DNA from: Gemmatimonadales bacterium
Lineage (GTDB): Bacteria; Gemmatimonadota; Gemmatimonadetes; Gemmatimonadales; GWC2-71-9
Assembly (NCBI GenBank): GCA_036265815.1
Contig: DATAOI010000019.1
Location: forward strand, 1-44,074
Length of the DNA: 44,074 bases
Direction of reading: 5' to 3'
The notes beneath the pieces were generated by a model, which saw nothing but the letters and a program-made list of their open reading frames with translations, was not told where the DNA came from and searched no databases. Both the position numbers and the translations under genes were made by a program. Of the stretch, positions 1-30,837 are shown piece after piece. Position 1 is the first letter of the stretch. Each line of letters opens with the position of its first letter.

Positions 1-785
1 AGCAAACACCGCATGATCAACGCGTCCAGCGCGCGCGGGCAGTCCGGGCGTTTGAGCTGGATCGGGGCCGGCGTCTGCGTGACGTGCGCCGCCATCTGCT
101 GCTGCGGCGTGGTGGCCCCGTACGGCGACCCACCCACGAGCATTTCGTATGCGACAAGCCCCAGGGCGTAGAGATCGGCCCGATGGTCGATCTGCGGATC
201 GGCGACGACCTGCTCCGGCGCCATGTAGGCCGGCGTGCCGAGCGAGACGCCGGCGGTTGTGAGGTGGTGCCGGCTGGTCGCGTCGCTCACCGCCTTGGCG
301 ACGCCGAAATCCATGACCAGAGCGTGGCCATCGGCGAGAAGGATGTTCTCCGGCTTGATGTCGCGATGCACCACCCCCGTCCTGTGGGCCTTGGCCAATG
401 CATCGGCGATCTCACCGGTCAACCGAACAACCTCGGGCACCGCCAACGGCCCGGTTCGGGCGAGTCGCTCGCGGAGCGTTTCGCCCTCGACGAAGGGCAT
501 CACGTAGTAGGGCAGTGCCGGCCCTTGCCCCTCGGTGATCACGCCCGAGTCGAGCAAGCCGAGGATGTGAGGATGCTGCAGCCGGGCGGCGACTTCGATC
601 TCCCGAGCAAAGCGCTCGGGGCCCATGGTAACCGCGAGCTCGGGGCGGAGGACCTTGAGCGCCACCTTGCGGTGGTGCTTCAGATCCTCGGCGAGGTACA
701 CCGTGGCCATACCGCCCTGGCCCAGCTCCCGCTCGATGTGGTAGCGGTCGGCGAGGCCCGCAATGAGCCTAGAGGTGTCGATCAC
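1..785 (-). CDS. Serine/threonine protein kinase, catalytic domain (cut by left edge)
   Basis: This is a Hanks-type kinase read on the minus strand; its C-terminal part lies beyond the window. The likely start is a GTG (VIDTSRLIAGLADRY); an in-frame TGA lies upstream and no better start was found. All core elements are visible: glycine loop GQGGMATVY, VALKVL lysine, HRDIKPEN catalytic loop, DFGVAK and an APE-like MAPEQ followed by DLYALG. The domain resembles those at 14832 and 37571, so the missing part probably carries a membrane helix and TPRs (inference). It is transcribed away from the hydrolase gene at 1109. Substrate and signal are unknown. Confidence 0.93.
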   Translation of the reverse strand, partial: MIDTSRLIAGLADRYHIERELGQGGMATVYLAEDLKHHRKVALKVLRPELAVTMGPERFAREIEVAARLQHPHILGLLDSGVITEGQGPALPYYVMPFVEGETLRERLARTGPLAVPEVVRLTGEIADALAKAHRTGVVHRDIKPENILLADGHALVMDFGVAKAVSDATSRHHLTTAGVSLGTPAYMAPEQVVADPQIDHRADLYALGLVAYEMLVGGSPYGATTPQQQMAAHVTQTPAPIQLKRPDCPRALDALIMRCL

Positions 786-23886: not shown

Positions 23887-24447
23887 CTACCTCTGCTGGT
23901 AGCTGTTCACGACGATCCCGCTCGGATAGGCGGTCGACCCGATCAGCTTGAACGGCGTCTCGGCCTTGAACACCTGCAGCCCCTGCCCGATCGCCACGGG
24001 GTTGACGAAGAAGTGAAGCTCGTCGATCAACCCGGCCTGAATCAGCGACGAGACGAAGGTTGCGCCGCCGTACACGACGATGTCCTTCCCCGCCTGCCCC
24101 TTGAGCCGGCTGACCGCCTCGCGCAGATCCCCGCTCTCCACCCGGATGTTCTTACCCGGGACCTGGCTCAGCGTCTTGCTGAAGACGACCTTCGGGGTAT
24201 CGACCATCTTGCGGGCGAAAACGTGTTCCGGGCTGTCCGGCCGCGTCATCAGCGCTTCCCAGTATTGCACGAACCCTCCGGTCATCTTTCTCCCCAGCAG
24301 GATCGTGTCACTGGTGTCGGTCAGGTGGGTGATGAACCCGATGAGCCGTTCATCATTGGCCTCAGTGGTCATCCAGGACAACTGACCGGCCGGCCCCGCC
24401 ACGAAGCCGTCCACGGTGATCTGCATCTGCAGCTTCAGCTTTCGCAT
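23887..24447 (-). CDS. Dihydrofolate reductase-family protein (RibD C-terminal type)
   Basis: 186 aa. Pattern of the RibD-C/DHFR-like family: MQITVDGFVAGPAGQLSWM at the start, TILLGRKMTGGFVQYWE, PKVVFSKTL, DIVVYGGATFVSSLIQAGLIDELHFFVNPVAIGQG and a C-terminal YPSGIVVNSYQQR. Members reduce pterin- or flavin-pathway intermediates in some cases, but many stand-alone copies next to MarR regulators have no assigned substrate. Its start overlaps the MarR gene by 13 nt, so it is translated from the same mRNA. It probably is not the housekeeping FolA. Confidence 0.92.
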   Translation of the reverse strand: MRKLKLQMQITVDGFVAGPAGQLSWMTTEANDERLIGFITHLTDTSDTILLGRKMTGGFVQYWEALMTRPDSPEHVFARKMVDTPKVVFSKTLSQVPGKNIRVESGDLREAVSRLKGQAGKDIVVYGGATFVSSLIQAGLIDELHFFVNPVAIGQGLQVFKAETPFKLIGSTAYPSGIVVNSYQQR

Positions 24448-24932
24448 GACGATTCCTCGAGCTTGGTGGTCTCGGCGCGAAGCCGCTCGGCATTCCGCGC
24501 CAGGAAATCGGTGATCACGGCAAGATCGCGGGTGGAGTACTGCTCGACCAGGCGCGCGAGAGACCGGCGGGTGGAGGCGAACCGCTCGCCGGCCGCCGTG
24601 AGCCGGTCCCTGACCGGCTCGACCAGGACCCGTCTCCGGTCCGCGCTGTCCCGGGCCCGCCGCACGAACCCCTTGCGCTCGAGCCGGTCCAGCAGGTTCG
24701 TGACCGACGCGCTCGCCAACCCGGAATGCGCCGCGATCTCTCCCGCGCTCATGGGCCCGAGCCGCTCGAGAATGCCCAGCGTCTTGTAGTCGGTCGGATG
24801 CAGGTCGAGCTGGCTGGCCATGACGCCATGGAAGAGCACGGTGGCGTCGCTGTGCTCCCGTCCCACCCGGGCGAACGCCTCGAGCACCTCCGCTCGTGTG
24901 GAGGCCGGTCTCTTGCGGGGCGACGCGATCAT
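24435..24932 (-). CDS. MarR-family transcriptional regulator
   Basis: 165 aa from the ATG at 24932, which overlaps the preceding TGA by 4 nt. MarR fold: long helix ALFH-like DATVLFHGVMASQLDLHPTDYKTLGIL, then MSAGEIAAHSGLASASVTNLLDRLERKGFVRRARDSADRRRVLVE (recognition helix plus wing), then dimerisation helices with AVITDFLARNAERL. MarR proteins are ligand-sensitive repressors that usually act on their own divergent promoter. Here the operon promoter at 25436-25464 and a 39-bp dyad lie in the divergent spacer shared with the copper-oxidase operon, so both could be targets (inference). Confidence 0.93.
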   Translation of the reverse strand: MIASPRKRPASTRAEVLEAFARVGREHSDATVLFHGVMASQLDLHPTDYKTLGILERLGPMSAGEIAAHSGLASASVTNLLDRLERKGFVRRARDSADRRRVLVEPVRDRLTAAGERFASTRRSLARLVEQYSTRDLAVITDFLARNAERLRAETTKLEESSCES

Positions 24933-25390
24933 GCCGCGAGCCGGGCGGCGGCCACGAGCGCGTCCATCAGCGCAGCACAGGTCACCAGATCCAGGGGAAA
25001 CCGGCCGACGCTCCGTCGGTTCCAGCGGCGCGCGGCGTCTTCGGTGATGCTGCTCGGATCCGCGCGCTCGAACGCCAGCGCCTTGGGGATGAAGTCGAAG
25101 GCGGACCAGAGTCGCATGGCCGCATGGCTGGCGAGCGCCGCGAGCAGGGGCATCCGGACCGCCGGCTGGCCCCACGACACGATCAGCGAGGCGATCAACG
25201 ACAGCTCGAAGGTGGTGTGGGCGGGAATCCAGAAGCGCCGGCGTGACACGCCGCCGCGGGCCGGCTGGATGAGCTCCGGCCGGCGGGGCCAAGCCGGGTC
25301 CACGACCAGAAATTCGTAGAGGCCGCCACCAAGCGAGGCGAGGGCGAGGGCGGCGGTCAGGGCCACGAGGGCCAGAGGCAGAGCGAGCAC
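24929..25390 (-). CDS. Small four-helix membrane protein, first gene of the MarR operon
   Basis: 153 aa. I place the start at GTG 25390, with AAGGA 8 nt upstream; the transcript probably begins near 25428, which excludes the much longer open frame. Hydrophobic segments lie at about 1-25, 58-80, 86-103 and 130-150, with a conserved-looking middle: FWIPAHTTFELSLIASLIVSW and SHAAMRLWSAFDFIPKALAFE. The family is not named with confidence; it is similar in layout to small DUF1772-like membrane proteins. Its stop overlaps the MarR start (ATGA). Confidence 0.75.
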   Translation of the reverse strand: MLALPLALVALTAALALASLGGGLYEFLVVDPAWPRRPELIQPARGGVSRRRFWIPAHTTFELSLIASLIVSWGQPAVRMPLLAALASHAAMRLWSAFDFIPKALAFERADPSSITEDAARRWNRRSVGRFPLDLVTCAALMDALVAAARLAA

Positions 25391-25435
25391 GAGCCAGATC
25401 CTTGGCAGAGCGGGGGTCGAATGTCGGCGTCGACG

Positions 25436-25464
25436 ATAATACGGTGGACCGAAATATCTGTCAA
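25436..25464 (-). promoter_or_regulatory. Consensus sigma70-type promoter of the membrane protein/MarR/DHFR operon
   Basis: On the minus strand TTGACA (25459-25464) is followed by exactly 17 bp and TATTAT (25436-25441), giving a perfect -35 and a near-perfect -10. Transcription should start around 25428, about 38 nt before the GTG at 25390. It is the best promoter in the window. Confidence 0.85.
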
Positions 25465-25474
25465 GCCGTAATAT
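25445..25474 (+). promoter_or_regulatory. Candidate plus-strand promoter of the propeller/oxidase operon
   Basis: TGGACC (25445-25450, 4 of 6 to the -35 consensus) and TAATAT (25469-25474) are 18 bp apart. Transcription would start near 25481, with a leader of about 55 nt containing the GAGAGGAG ribosome site. It interlocks with the minus-strand promoter. Confidence 0.5.
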
Positions 25475-25535
25475 CCCCCCCACGCAGGGAGGCAGACGCC
25501 TATCTTTGCAGGCATCCACCTCGAGAGGAGCCTCG

Positions 25536-26924
25536 ATGTCCCGCCTGTTCATCTCCCTGGTCCTGCTATCTATCCCGGTTGCCGCCCTCCGGGCCCAAGA
25601 CCCGGGGGTCGCGGTGCGCCCCTTCGACCAGAAGCATGGGGGCAGCAAGTCGGTGCACATGCTCGCCCACGTCGTGACCAACCCCGCCCCGTGGAAGGCG
25701 GCGGACATCGAGATGGAGCAGGACCCCGGGCGGCCGTACGTCTACGTCTGCGGGTTCGTCAACTTCGATACCCAGATCTACGACGTGAAGGACCCCGCCC
25801 ACCCGCGCCGCGTCTTCCGCTGGCAGATTGATAATCCCGAGCTGCACCGCGGCATCGGCGCGATGGACGGGAAGTACTTCAAGATCGGCTCGAAGTATTT
25901 CTACGTGCAGTCACTCCAGTTCATGCAGGGCAGCCCCGACGCCGACCTCGGCGCCGTGGTGTTCGACGTGACCGGGCTGCCCGACTCGAGCAAGGTGAAG
26001 GAGGTGGCGCGCCTTCGCTATCCCGCGGCGCCGGGCGGCTTCCACAACATCTTTGCCTACAAGCATTCCGACGGTCGCGTGCTGCTCTTCGCCACCATCA
26101 ATGACACCAAGGCGCTGGTCTACGACCTCGGCAAGGTGGTGAGTGGCGCCGATTCGACCGGCTGGATCGTCGGCGCCGTCCCCAACCCGACCCCCTTCAA
26201 GCAGATCGGCGCCGGCGGGTATCACGACTTTTACGTCGGCTACGATCCCGCCACTCACCAGGACAAGTTCTACGGCGCCGGGCTCGGCGGGTACTCGGTA
26301 TGGGACGTGACCCATCCCGAGTCACCCACGGAGATGTTCACCCTGACCGGACTCGGCTTCGACATCGCACATACCTTCACACCGTCGCCCGATGGCCGGT
26401 GGGCGGTGACGATGACCGAATACGAATACACGCCGCTTCGGATCTGGGATCTCGGGCCCGGCCAGCGTGACTCGACCAAGAACCTCGACCTCGCCGTCAG
26501 CGCGTGGACCGCCGACTGGCGCGACCTGGCGCACAACCACGAGGTGCGGTGGCCTTACGTGTTCGTCTCCGCGTACGAAGATGGCTTCCAGGTGTTCGAC
26601 CTCAAGAACCCGAGGGCGCCCAAGACCGACGGCTGGTACTACACCTGCGGGTGCAAGCACGGGAACGGCTTCGGTGGCACTCCGGACAACGGCTGGCAGG
26701 GGACCAACAGCGTGGAGCAGGGCGCGTTCGGCATCGACGTGCGAAACCGCGACGGGCTGATCGCGATGACCGATATGCGGAGCGGCCTCTGGCTCTTCCG
26801 GCTCGACGGGTTCAAAGGCTGGAACGGCCGCGACGTCGGCATGCCCAACATCTCGAGCGTGCAGGACTACGATCGTGGGCCCGTCGCCGCAGCGGGAAGC
26901 GCCCCGAGCCGCGAGACCCGGTGA
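25536..26924 (+). CDS. Secreted LVIVD-type beta-propeller protein, first gene of the copper-oxidase operon
   Basis: 462 aa. Signal peptide MSRLFISLVLLSIPVAALRAQ (cleavage about 21) after GAGAGGAG. The repeats VCGFVNFDTQIYDVKDPAHPRRV, GAVVFDVTGLPD, GYSVWDVTHPESPTEM, FVSAYEDGFQVFDLKNPRAPK and GLWLFRLDG are the LVIVD/WD-like blades typical of secreted propellers. Several histidines sit at blade starts (GGFHNIF, GGYHDFY, DIAHTF, AHNHEVRW), and there is a CGCKH motif, so metal binding at the centre is possible, as in selenium-binding/methanethiol-oxidase-type propellers. The latter relationship is inference. The stop overlaps the next gene by 4 nt. Confidence 0.85.
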   Translation: MSRLFISLVLLSIPVAALRAQDPGVAVRPFDQKHGGSKSVHMLAHVVTNPAPWKAADIEMEQDPGRPYVYVCGFVNFDTQIYDVKDPAHPRRVFRWQIDNPELHRGIGAMDGKYFKIGSKYFYVQSLQFMQGSPDADLGAVVFDVTGLPDSSKVKEVARLRYPAAPGGFHNIFAYKHSDGRVLLFATINDTKALVYDLGKVVSGADSTGWIVGAVPNPTPFKQIGAGGYHDFYVGYDPATHQDKFYGAGLGGYSVWDVTHPESPTEMFTLTGLGFDIAHTFTPSPDGRWAVTMTEYEYTPLRIWDLGPGQRDSTKNLDLAVSAWTADWRDLAHNHEVRWPYVFVSAYEDGFQVFDLKNPRAPKTDGWYYTCGCKHGNGFGGTPDNGWQGTNSVEQGAFGIDVRNRDGLIAMTDMRSGLWLFRLDGFKGWNGRDVGMPNISSVQDYDRGPVAAAGSAPSRETR

Positions 26925-27403
26925 CCCGCACGCTCTCATGGTTGGCGACGCTGGCCGCGAGCGTGCTGGTGCTGTCCGGTGGCGGGCCGTACGACATCGC
27001 GTTGTTCCCGACACCCGTCGCCCGCGGCGCGAGCGGCGAGGCGCGGCTCATCCCTAGCGGCTCCCCCTTCGGCATCGGGGTGACAGCCGACGGGCACGCG
27101 AGCTACGACGTTCGCATCTCCGCGGCGAAGCTCCCGCGGCCGGAGAGACTGGGCAAGTTCGCCGCCTACGTCGCTTGGGCCGCCACGCCCGACCTGACCC
27201 AGTGGGTGCGGCTCGGCTCGGTCCGGAACGGCGTCTCTACCGTGGGTCCGGTCGAGCTCAACAAGTTCCTGTTGGTGATCACGGCCGAGCCCGACTCGTC
27301 TGCCGCGCGACACTCGGGCCCGACTGTCCTCCACGGCACTTCGCCCAGCGGCTGGCTCCTGTCCTTCCTGACGCATCCGCTGTTCCGCGGGATCGCTCAA
27401 TGA
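26921..27403 (+). CDS. 160-aa secreted protein of unknown function between propeller and multicopper oxidase
   Basis: GTG start overlapping the upstream TGA (GTGA), and its own stop overlapping the next ATG (ATGA). A hydrophobic N-terminus (LSWLATLAASVLVLSGGG) is a signal peptide or anchor. The rest is a compact beta-type sequence: GIGVTADGHASYDVRISAAKLPRPERLGKFAAYVAWAATPDLTQWVRLG, then VELNKFLLVITAEPD and GTSPSGWLLSF. I do not recognise a named family. Strict coupling to the oxidase suggests a chaperone, partner or assembly subunit. Confidence 0.72.
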   Translation: MTRTLSWLATLAASVLVLSGGGPYDIALFPTPVARGASGEARLIPSGSPFGIGVTADGHASYDVRISAAKLPRPERLGKFAAYVAWAATPDLTQWVRLGSVRNGVSTVGPVELNKFLLVITAEPDSSAARHSGPTVLHGTSPSGWLLSFLTHPLFRGIAQ

Positions 27404-29094
27404 GCCGCGCGGCGGTGGTACTCCTGGCGGCCGCGGCTGTCGCCGTGACCGCCAGCCGTCTCGCCGCTCAACAGCCGGCGCATCGAATGACGGACATGGA
27501 CGGCGGGAAGCACCCGGATAGTGCCATGGCGATGCCGGTGCCGATGCCACGCGGGATGGTCATGATGCCGGGGCTCGTCGGCCTGACGCCGGGCACCACG
27601 CCCTTCGTCCCCGGGCGCGGCGTCGATCCCATGACGCTGCCGCCGGCGAAGCCGGCGTCGCTCACGCGTCTCGATGACGACGATACCCTCGACCTGACGG
27701 CCGCGCTGGTCCGGCGGACGATCCGCGGCCACGCCTTCGCCATGTACGCCTTCAACGGCCAGGTGCCGGGACCGCTCATCCGGGTCGCCCAGGGCGCCGC
27801 GATCGTCGTGCGTTTCCACAACCGGATCGACCTGCCGAGCACGGTGCATTGGCATGGCGTTCGTCTCGACAACGCATCCGACGGGGCCGTCGGCGTAACC
27901 CAGGACCCGGTGGCGCCCGGCGGCGACTACACGTACACGGTCCGCTTTCCCGACGCCGGCGTCTACTGGTACCACCCGCACGTCCGGGAGGACATCGAGC
28001 AGTCCATGGGCCTGTTCGGAAACATGGTGGTCGACTCCCCCGACGCCGACTACTACTCGCCGGCCAACCGGGAGGAGGCGCTGATGCTGAGCGACCTGCT
28101 CATCCAGGCCGACAGCCTCATTCCGTTCGGGAAGGAGGCGCCGGACTTCGCGTTGATGGGGCGGGTGGGGAACGTGCTGCTGGTGAACGGCGAGCCGGAC
28201 TACGCGCTGCGCGCGCACCGGGGCGAGGTGATCCGGTTCTATCTCACCAACGCGGCCAGCTCGCGCACCTGGAACCTCTCGTTCGGCGGCGCGCCGATCA
28301 AGCTGCTCGCGTCGGACCTGAGCCGGTTCGAGCGCGAGGCCATGGTGCCGAGCGTGGTGCTGGGCCCGGCGGAGCGGTACCTCGTCGAGGTGCGCTTCGA
28401 CCGGCCGGGGGCCTATCCGCTGCTCAACATGGTGCAGGCGATCAACCACTTCCGCGGCGAGTTCCAGTCAGAGGTGGACACGCTCGGGATGGTGCGGGTG
28501 GACTCGGCGGCGGCCACGCCCGATCACGCGCCCGCGTTCGAGCGGCTGCGAGCCAATACCGCCGTCTCGAAGGACATCGAGCGCTACCGGCGGTACTTCG
28601 ACAAGGAGCCGGACAAGCGGCTGACGCTCACGGTCCGCACGGCCGGCCTCCCGCTCGCCACCGTGCAGTTCATGACCATCGATACCGCCTACTACGCGCC
28701 GGTCGAGTGGGTGGATGGGATGCCGGACATGAACTGGCTGTCGACCTCGAAGCAGGTCCGCTGGGTTCTTCGTGACGACGCGACCGGCAAAGAGAACGGG
28801 GCGATCGACTGGCACGTGAGACGCGGCTCGGTCGTGAAGCTCAGAATCGTCAACGATCCCCGCTCGTTTCATCCCATGCAGCACCCGATCCACCTGCACG
28901 GCCAACGCATGCTGGTCGTGGCGCGGGATGGCGTTCGCACCACGAACCTGGTCTGGAAGGACACCGCGCTCATCCCGGTCGGCTCTACCGTGGACCTCCT
29001 CATCGATGCCTCCAACCCCGGCGCCTGGATGCTTCACTGCCACATCGCCGAGCACCTCGGCGCGGGGATGATGGCGGTGCTGCACGTCGATTGA
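27400..29094 (+). CDS. Multicopper oxidase (CopA/CueO-like) with Met-rich N-terminus
   Basis: 564 aa. Signal peptide ends about SRLAAQ. Residues 30-56 hold eight methionines plus several His, resembling the Cu(I)-binding segment of CopA-type oxidases. Copper centres are intact: HWHG (150-153), YHPH (191-194), HPIHLHG (495-501) and HCHIAEHLGAGM (546-557, with Cys547, His552 and axial Met557). Such enzymes oxidise Cu(I), metals or phenols with O2 in the periplasm. Third gene of the trio after the propeller and the 160-aa protein, starting inside the preceding stop. Convergent with the flavoprotein gene at 29110. Confidence 0.95.
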   Translation: MSRAAVVLLAAAAVAVTASRLAAQQPAHRMTDMDGGKHPDSAMAMPVPMPRGMVMMPGLVGLTPGTTPFVPGRGVDPMTLPPAKPASLTRLDDDDTLDLTAALVRRTIRGHAFAMYAFNGQVPGPLIRVAQGAAIVVRFHNRIDLPSTVHWHGVRLDNASDGAVGVTQDPVAPGGDYTYTVRFPDAGVYWYHPHVREDIEQSMGLFGNMVVDSPDADYYSPANREEALMLSDLLIQADSLIPFGKEAPDFALMGRVGNVLLVNGEPDYALRAHRGEVIRFYLTNAASSRTWNLSFGGAPIKLLASDLSRFEREAMVPSVVLGPAERYLVEVRFDRPGAYPLLNMVQAINHFRGEFQSEVDTLGMVRVDSAAATPDHAPAFERLRANTAVSKDIERYRRYFDKEPDKRLTLTVRTAGLPLATVQFMTIDTAYYAPVEWVDGMPDMNWLSTSKQVRWVLRDDATGKENGAIDWHVRRGSVVKLRIVNDPRSFHPMQHPIHLHGQRMLVVARDGVRTTNLVWKDTALIPVGSTVDLLIDASNPGAWMLHCHIAEHLGAGMMAVLHVD

Positions 29095-29109: not shown

Positions 29110-30837
29110 CTACGATACGGCAGACTGCCCGGCGCCGCCGCCCACCTCGGCTCTCTCGCCGCGTGTCTCGAGCTCGGCCAGCACATGATGCACCACGGCG
29201 ATCGCCATACTTCCCTCTCCCACGGCCGCCGAGCACCGCTTGATGGATCCGTGACGAACGTCGCCGGCGGCGAGGATGCCAGGCACGCTGGTCTCCAGGA
29301 GAAAGGGATCGCGCTCGAGCGGCCAGGTGGTCGGCGGACGCTCGCGCAGCAGATCCATGACGTCGCGACCGGTACAGATGTAGCCCCACTGATCCCGGAT
29401 CACCGCGTCGGGCAGCCAGGCGGTCTGCGCCTCGCCTCCGATGAGCACGAAGAGCGCGTCGCTCGCCCGCCGCTCCCGGCGCCGTCCCTTGTCAGACGTC
29501 ACTTCGATGGCCTCGAGGCTCTCCTTCCCCTCCACGCCGGTGACCTGGACTCCGGTCTCCACCGTGACGTTGTGCTGCTGCTCGAGTTGATCGATCAGGT
29601 AACGTGACATGCTCGCCGCAAGCGACTGTCCCCGCACCAGCATCGTCACCGATCTCGCGTAGTCGGCAAAGAGCAGGGCCGCCTGCCCGGCAGAGTTGCC
29701 TCCACCCACCAGGTGCACGTCGAGCCCCTGCATCTTGAGCGCTTCGGCCTTCGCGGCCCCGTAGTACACGCCATGCCCGACCAGTCGCTCGATCCCAGGC
29801 ACCGAGAGCCGGCGCCAGTCGACGCCGGTTGCGAGAATCACCGTCCTGGCTTGGATGCGGGTCTCGTCGTCGAGGACGATGGTATGAGACGGCCCTTCCG
29901 CCCGGGGATCGCCCGGCTCCAGCCGAGCGACCGTTCGGGGCACCAGCAGCTCGGCGCCGAAGCGGAGCGCCTGCCGGCGCGCGCGAGCGCTCAGCTCGTC
30001 ACCGCCGATGCCCACGGGGAAGCCGAGGTAGTTCTCGATCCGGGAGGAGGTGCCCGCCTGCCCCCCGTACGCCAGCCGCTCGACTGACAGCGTTCGGAGT
30101 CCTTCGGAGGCGCCATACACCGCGGCCGCCAGTCCGCCGATTCCGCCGCCGACGATCACGGCGTCGTAGGCCCGGTGCTTGGGCTGGGTCTGGAGCCCGA
30201 GTGCCTCCGCCAGCCCGCGGAAGGTGGGCGCCTCCAGCCGCCTGCCATCGGGGAGCACCACGGCCGTGGGAGTGACCCGGGCCTCCTGGTCAGCCGGAGA
30301 AGATCCGTTCGGCTCCTGCCAGACGAACGCCACACCGTTGCGCAGGAGGAAGTCACGCAGGTCGAAGCAGGCGGCATCGCGGGCGTCTCCGATCACCGTG
30401 ACCACCCCGCGCGGGTGCTCGACCTGGAACTGGCTCAGGTGCTTCACCCGAGCCGCCATCGTCTTGGTGATCTCGGAGCTCAGCACCTGGCACTGACTCA
30501 CCAGCTGCAGGAAATCCGCCCCCTCGAGCCGAAGCACGCGGCACGGCTCAGTGGCGCGGAGGTTGGCGATGGCGGGAGAGCCGAGCAGCAGCGGCACCTC
30601 GCCGAACGAGTCGCCTGGGCCATAGGTCGTGAGCCGATGTTCCTGGCCGTCGACGATCTTGAGCACGTCGATGTGGCCCTCGAGCAACCCGTAGAAGCCT
30701 GCGTTCTGGCCCTCGACGAGGAGCCACTCGTCCTTGCGCAGGCGGAGATCGGCCGCGCGGGCGGCCAGGGAGATGCGCTCGTCTTCCGGTACCTTGGAGA
30801 AGAGCGAGATATGGCGTATCAAGTCGGCAGTGATCAC
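29110..30837 (-). CDS. Cyclic-nucleotide-domain/thioredoxin-reductase-like flavoprotein lacking CxxC
   Basis: 575 aa, GTG start. Domains: cNMP-binding fold (5-125, GPGDSFGEVPLLLGS), a thioredoxin/glutaredoxin-like segment (143-215), then a TrxR-type module with FAD loop GGGIGG (230-235), NAD(P)H loop GGGNSAGQA (378-386) and closing AAGDVRHG. Two losses stand out: the cNMP pocket has PAIANLRA where CAP has RSA..RA, so the phosphate-binding Arg is missing; and GVYYGAAKAEA occupies the place of the redox CATC. The family of fused cNMP/TrxR proteins is known in databases, but its activity is not established. Probably cytosolic. Downstream of the YncE-like gene on the same strand. Confidence 0.9.
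   Translation of the reverse strand: MITADLIRHISLFSKVPEDERISLAARAADLRLRKDEWLLVEGQNAGFYGLLEGHIDVLKIVDGQEHRLTTYGPGDSFGEVPLLLGSPAIANLRATEPCRVLRLEGADFLQLVSQCQVLSSEITKTMAARVKHLSQFQVEHPRGVVTVIGDARDAACFDLRDFLLRNGVAFVWQEPNGSSPADQEARVTPTAVVLPDGRRLEAPTFRGLAEALGLQTQPKHRAYDAVIVGGGIGGLAAAVYGASEGLRTLSVERLAYGGQAGTSSRIENYLGFPVGIGGDELSARARRQALRFGAELLVPRTVARLEPGDPRAEGPSHTIVLDDETRIQARTVILATGVDWRRLSVPGIERLVGHGVYYGAAKAEALKMQGLDVHLVGGGNSAGQAALLFADYARSVTMLVRGQSLAASMSRYLIDQLEQQHNVTVETGVQVTGVEGKESLEAIEVTSDKGRRRERRASDALFVLIGGEAQTAWLPDAVIRDQWGYICTGRDVMDLLRERPPTTWPLERDPFLLETSVPGILAAGDVRHGSIKRCSAAVGEGSMAIAVVHHVLAELETRGERAEVGGGAGQSAVS

Follow-up and report, generated by a model that had tools for sequence, protein, structure and literature searches.

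A candidate MarR autorepression site within the E. coli-like promoter of a probably acquired P2-MarR-RibD_C operon in a Gemmatimonadales bacterium

Genes and features of the locus

The window, meaning the whole 44,074-nucleotide stretch of Gemmatimonadales DNA that was analyzed, contains two three-gene operons transcribed away from each other. Their genes and the sites considered below are listed in Table 1.

Table 1. Positions of genes, promoter elements, and proposed binding sites in the window
Feature	Positions	Strand	Remarks
RibD_C-domain (dihydrofolate-reductase-like) protein	23887..24447	-	Pfam PF01872, 1.6e-23; overlaps end of marR
MarR-family regulator P0001	24435..24932	-	Pfam PF01047, 2.8e-16; start overlaps P2 stop
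P2, small 4-helix, probably membrane protein; first gene of operon	24929..25390	-	GTG start; 21 homologues
Proposed MarR operator, 24-bp palindrome GATAATACGG-TGGA-CCGAAATATC	25435..25458		Half-sites H1 and H2
Half-site H1, GATAATACGG	25435..25444		
-10 box TATTAT of P2-MarR-RibD_C operon	25436..25441	-	Within proposed operator; register as in Marinobacter halodurans locus L117
Plus-strand promoter TGGACC-18-TAATAT of the sequence-only reading	25445..25474	+	TGGACC 25445-25450, 18 bp, TAATAT 25469-25474; weak, 8/12; -35 is the operator core
Half-site H2, CCGAAATATC	25449..25458		Between both arms of the 39-bp dyad
-35 box TTGACA of P2-MarR-RibD_C operon	25459..25464	-	Sole TTGACA-16..18-TATWAT in genome
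Orphan half-site H3, CCGTAATATC	25466..25475		Direct repeat of H2 at 17 bp; right arm of dyad
Candidate resident -10 box TATCTT of propeller operon	25501..25506	+	Common to L036 and L037; 24-29 nt from ATG
Propeller-like (LVIVD/choice-anchor type) secreted protein; first gene of divergent operon	25536..26924	+	86% orthologue in congener
Middle gene of divergent operon, no known family	26921..27403	+	
Multicopper oxidase	27400..29094	+	Pfam Cu-oxidase_3/_2

The three minus-strand genes overlap in the order P2, MarR, and RibD_C. P0001 is a member of the MarR family, its winged-helix domain scoring 59.6 bits with PF01047 against a curated cut-off of 24.6. P2, whose GTG start is preceded by a directly visible AAGGA, had no match in Pfam or NCBIfam. 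An AlphaFold2 model of moderate confidence (mean pLDDT 77.7) gave a four-helix bundle, and a fold search of P2 against the PDB returned no significant match. One scan of a genome collection found P2 homologues at 21 loci with alignable identities of 59-73%; the nearest relatives were in Proteobacteria and Mycobacterium, and pairing of P2 with MarR recurred at 9 of the 21 loci. No description of a P2-MarR-RibD_C operon type was found in a limited literature search. The P2 family is widespread, being present in Alpha-, Beta-, and Gammaproteobacteria, Mycobacterium, and Acidobacteriota; its members have strongly conserved W, H, and E residues and often adjoin a MarR gene.

The first protein of the plus-strand operon had no Pfam match, and its NCBIfam matches (choice_anch_B and methanethiol oxidase) were weak and below cut-off. 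Orthologues of this gene with 69-86% identity were present in numerous genomes across the phylum, and the other two genes of the operon accompanied most of them. At least 15 genomes preserve the three-gene arrangement, and 2 of its 3 proteins lack a Pfam match.

A strong minus-strand promoter and a chance-level dyad

An earlier reading made from the letters of the sequence alone (the sequence-only reading) had described two interlocked divergent promoters with a 39-bp dyad covering both -10 boxes. The minus-strand promoter was exactly as described. TTGACA (25464-25459), a 17-bp spacer, and TATTAT (25441-25436) match the consensus at 11 of 12 positions, a score that never appeared when the 143-bp spacer between the operons was dinucleotide-shuffled 1000 times. 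Genome-wide counts were obtained by pattern search, and TTGACA-N16..18-TATWAT had a single occurrence in the 4.59-Mb genome, namely this promoter. Positions 25436-25464 of the minus strand therefore have the look of a real promoter for the operon of P2, MarR, and RibD_C.

The dyad fared differently. Its arms, H1 and H3, exist (8 of 9 bp matching, extendable to 9 of 10) and are 21 bp apart, but a pair of 9/10 arms at any spacing from 0 to 30 bp was obtained in 75 of 1000 dinucleotide shuffles (7.5%). Since the minus promoter was never matched by shuffling and is unique in the genome, whereas the dyad lies within chance, the significant feature of the spacer is the strong minus promoter and not the dyad. 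The 39-bp dyad was rejected as an operator unit because of this chance level and because its right arm is not conserved at L117, the locus in M. halodurans described below. The proposed plus-strand promoter was likewise present in its letters, but it is weak as a promoter and its -35 box coincides with the core of the proposed operator.

A 24-bp palindrome within the minus promoter

The sequence-only reading had itself doubted that a 21-bp arm spacing would suit a MarR protein, rightly, and the better unit is a compact palindrome of H1 and H2. H2 was absent from that reading, as were the P2 gene and the alternative -10-like TATCTT. H1 and H2 pair imperfectly, either as 10-4-10 with 8 of 10 matches or as 11-2-11 with 9 of 11. 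The resulting 24-bp palindrome extends across the -35/-10 spacer of the minus promoter and its -10 box; it has the 20-24 bp size expected of an autoregulatory MarR site and overlaps the operon's promoter. It is single-copy in its own genome at up to 3 mismatches. A scan of the phylum at 3 mismatches gave scattered matches with 2-3 mismatches in 36 of 298 genomes, including its own, counted irrespective of gene context; the motif had no match in viral contigs.

H3 agrees with H2 at 9 of 10 positions as a direct repeat and with H1 at 9 of 10 as an inverted repeat. Three related half-sites were found in 16 of 300 shuffles, making the significance of H3 marginal. These counts, like the 7.5% obtained for the arm pair, would suit another explanation, in which the dyad is a by-product of two opposed, AT-rich, -10-like boxes in a GC-rich spacer, with arms arising by chance and no protein bound. 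We consider this very unlikely given how the H1/H2 palindrome behaves in another phylum.

Recurrence of the palindrome at a Marinobacter locus

The closest MarR homologue found, P0005 of M. halodurans (L117), is 58% identical to the window MarR and is encoded divergently from a P2 homologue of 67-70% identity. The 69-bp gap between the two genes contains AATATTACGGTCTACCGAGATATA, which matches the window palindrome at 18 of 24 positions, a score reached in 5 of 20000 shuffles. AATATTACGGTCTACCGAGATATA lies inside TTGCCA-17-TAATAT, a promoter reading into marR, and its register relative to the -35 and -10 boxes is that of the window. This return of the palindrome in an unchanged promoter register, next to the closest MarR homologue found and across a phylum boundary, argues against a by-product, as does its near-absence from the rest of either genome. 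The Marinobacter genome has one clear copy, the only further match being one site with 3 mismatches. A site present once in the genome of the window and near-unique in Marinobacter fits a dedicated local regulator.

The two loci share the MarR, P2, the palindrome core, and the promoter register; they differ in that MarR and P2 at L117 are divergent rather than in one operon and that H3, by inspection, is absent. No RibD_C match was found in the 8.4 kb of L117 sequence searched. This operator type was found in the window and at one other locus, L117, and its consensus is drawn from these two sites themselves. Conservation of the dyad arms in relatives had been proposed as a check; no relative found keeps the gene order of the window, and L117, which shares MarR and P2, lacks the right arm.

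Other homologues were more distant. Across the searches run, L117 supplied the one MarR homologue exceeding 50% identity; the family-wide search gave none above 42%, plasmid MarRs were all below 43% identity to P0001, 274 genomes of the class of Marinobacter yielded no further MarR orthologue, and P0001 had no match in viral contigs. MarR homologues of 34-50% identity in the same phylum (L094-L100) have other upstream sequences and so provide no test of the site.

Operators and recognition helices at other P2 loci

Most proteobacterial P2 loci have a different palindrome, TATCTTnATnATnAAGATA, just upstream of P2. It scored 12-16 of 16 at 12 proteobacterial loci and at the Bryobacteraceae (acidobacterial) locus L120, with the weakest of them, L121, equal to the background maximum. 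TATCTTnATnATnAAGATA was observed upstream of P2 at L107, L109, L110, L112, L114, L115, L116, L119, L120, L122, L123, and L126. It is likely to be the operator of the MarR proteins of those loci. In the P2-MarR(-RibD_C) operons (L107, L109, L115, L116, L120, L121, L123, and L126), P2 is followed by MarR as in the window, and L115 and L120 also have RibD_C. These operons of Alphaproteobacteria and others mostly carry a palindrome just upstream as well, but it is of the TATCTTnATnATnAAGATA type, and wherever a MarR is recognizable at the other P2 loci it is only 28-40% identical to the window MarR. The MarRs of TATCTTnATnATnAAGATA-type loci also differ in recognition helix (GLTSGAVTALIDRL versus GLASASVTNLLDRL). 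Site and recognition helix therefore change together, as they should if each site is read by the MarR encoded beside it.

Because the motif recurs beside the closest homologue found and because helix and operator type change together, the linked MarR is the best candidate for the protein reading the palindrome. The suggestion of a regulatory site overlapping a strong promoter, with MarR as the foremost candidate, thus gains support from comparison of these loci. The site could instead belong to a regulator whose gene lies elsewhere; this is highly improbable, since among the loci compared the motif was found only beside this MarR type, a single-copy site leaves such a regulator no regulon, and the palindromes upstream of other MarR homologues are different ones.

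The propeller operon and joint control

Divergent promoters are frequent targets of MarR proteins, and the sequence-only reading had proposed that one repressor could switch both operons, in which case H3 would be an additional half-site close to the plus-strand -10 box. H3 does overlap the plus-strand TAATAT, the palindrome is within 80 bp of both genes, and a single intergenic region of Streptomyces coelicolor contains two sites for the MarR protein SCO3205 (PMC3737563). Comparison with relatives did not support the proposal. A MarR, P2, or RibD match adjoined the propeller gene in 0 of 29 orthologues or homologues examined, so the propeller operon is conserved without these neighbors, and a palindrome above background was found in 0 of 17 upstream regions of propeller orthologues. 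DNA homology with the congener G002 runs from 25498 to 29091 at 79% identity; it begins downstream of all of the half-sites, which lie outside the DNA common to the two genomes, and it includes TATCTT, a box that two congeners have as well. Together with the weak plus promoter, its -35 box in the operator core, and the absence of H3 from L117, these data make joint control unlikely.

The homology with G002 ends sharply at 25498, which likely marks where an insertion or rearrangement separated the MarR operon's DNA from that of the propeller operon. The propeller operon's own promoter region probably starts near this position; no convincing -35 box was seen for TATCTT. Alternatively, the resident DNA upstream of 25498 was replaced and TAATAT is now used, with MarR and H3 repressing in both directions from a 41-bp element, a scenario that we regard as quite unlikely.

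Proposed mechanism

We think it rather likely, overall, that an acquired P2-MarR-RibD_C operon is autorepressed by a dimer of its own MarR at the palindrome of H1 and H2. Each half-site would receive one recognition helix, with the wings on the AT-rich ends. Bound MarR would mask the spacer and the -10 box and so deny RNA polymerase access, resulting in negative autoregulation, and release of MarR by a ligand would derepress the operon. The ligands of many MarRs are phenolic, quinone, or oxidant. Horizontal acquisition of the operon is probable given its lone E. coli-like promoter, the failure of the family-wide search to find a close MarR homologue, and the occurrence of the closest P2 relatives in Proteobacteria and Mycobacterium. 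The acquired operon, with its E. coli-like promoter, would then sit head-to-head with a resident propeller/multicopper-oxidase operon.

E. coli MarR is an autorepressor with a palindromic operator at its own promoter. In the crystal structure of SCO3205 with DNA, the recognition helices occupy successive major grooves of a 22-bp pseudopalindrome, a site located upstream of the protein's own gene (PMC3737563). The geometry in the window resembles this complex. As in MarR autorepressors such as SCO3205, the operon of a PF01047 protein has a pseudopalindromic site of 20-24 bp at its promoter, and negative autoregulation would be expected. The window differs from them in that AT-rich flanks surround an operator core of CGGT-NN-ACCG and that a gene of an unnamed family heads the operon. 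Most likely, then, the arrangement is ordinary MarR autorepression, with the operator and the gene list corrected relative to the sequence-only reading.

The palindrome provides a concrete operator candidate for a previously unlinked MarR subfamily and for P2, its unnamed membrane-protein partner. An apparently imported operon can, it seems, retain the E. coli-like promoter it came with even though its GC-rich host is otherwise without such promoters. The separation of the two operons also corrects a tempting but unsupported account of a multicopper oxidase under joint control.

Additional observations

Another palindrome type, TTCGgtCGAA / TTCGTTCGAGCGAA, is located near the MarR start at L094 and L095. 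In the window, positions 29110-30837 of the minus strand encode a cyclic-nucleotide-binding domain fused to a thioredoxin-reductase-like flavoprotein.
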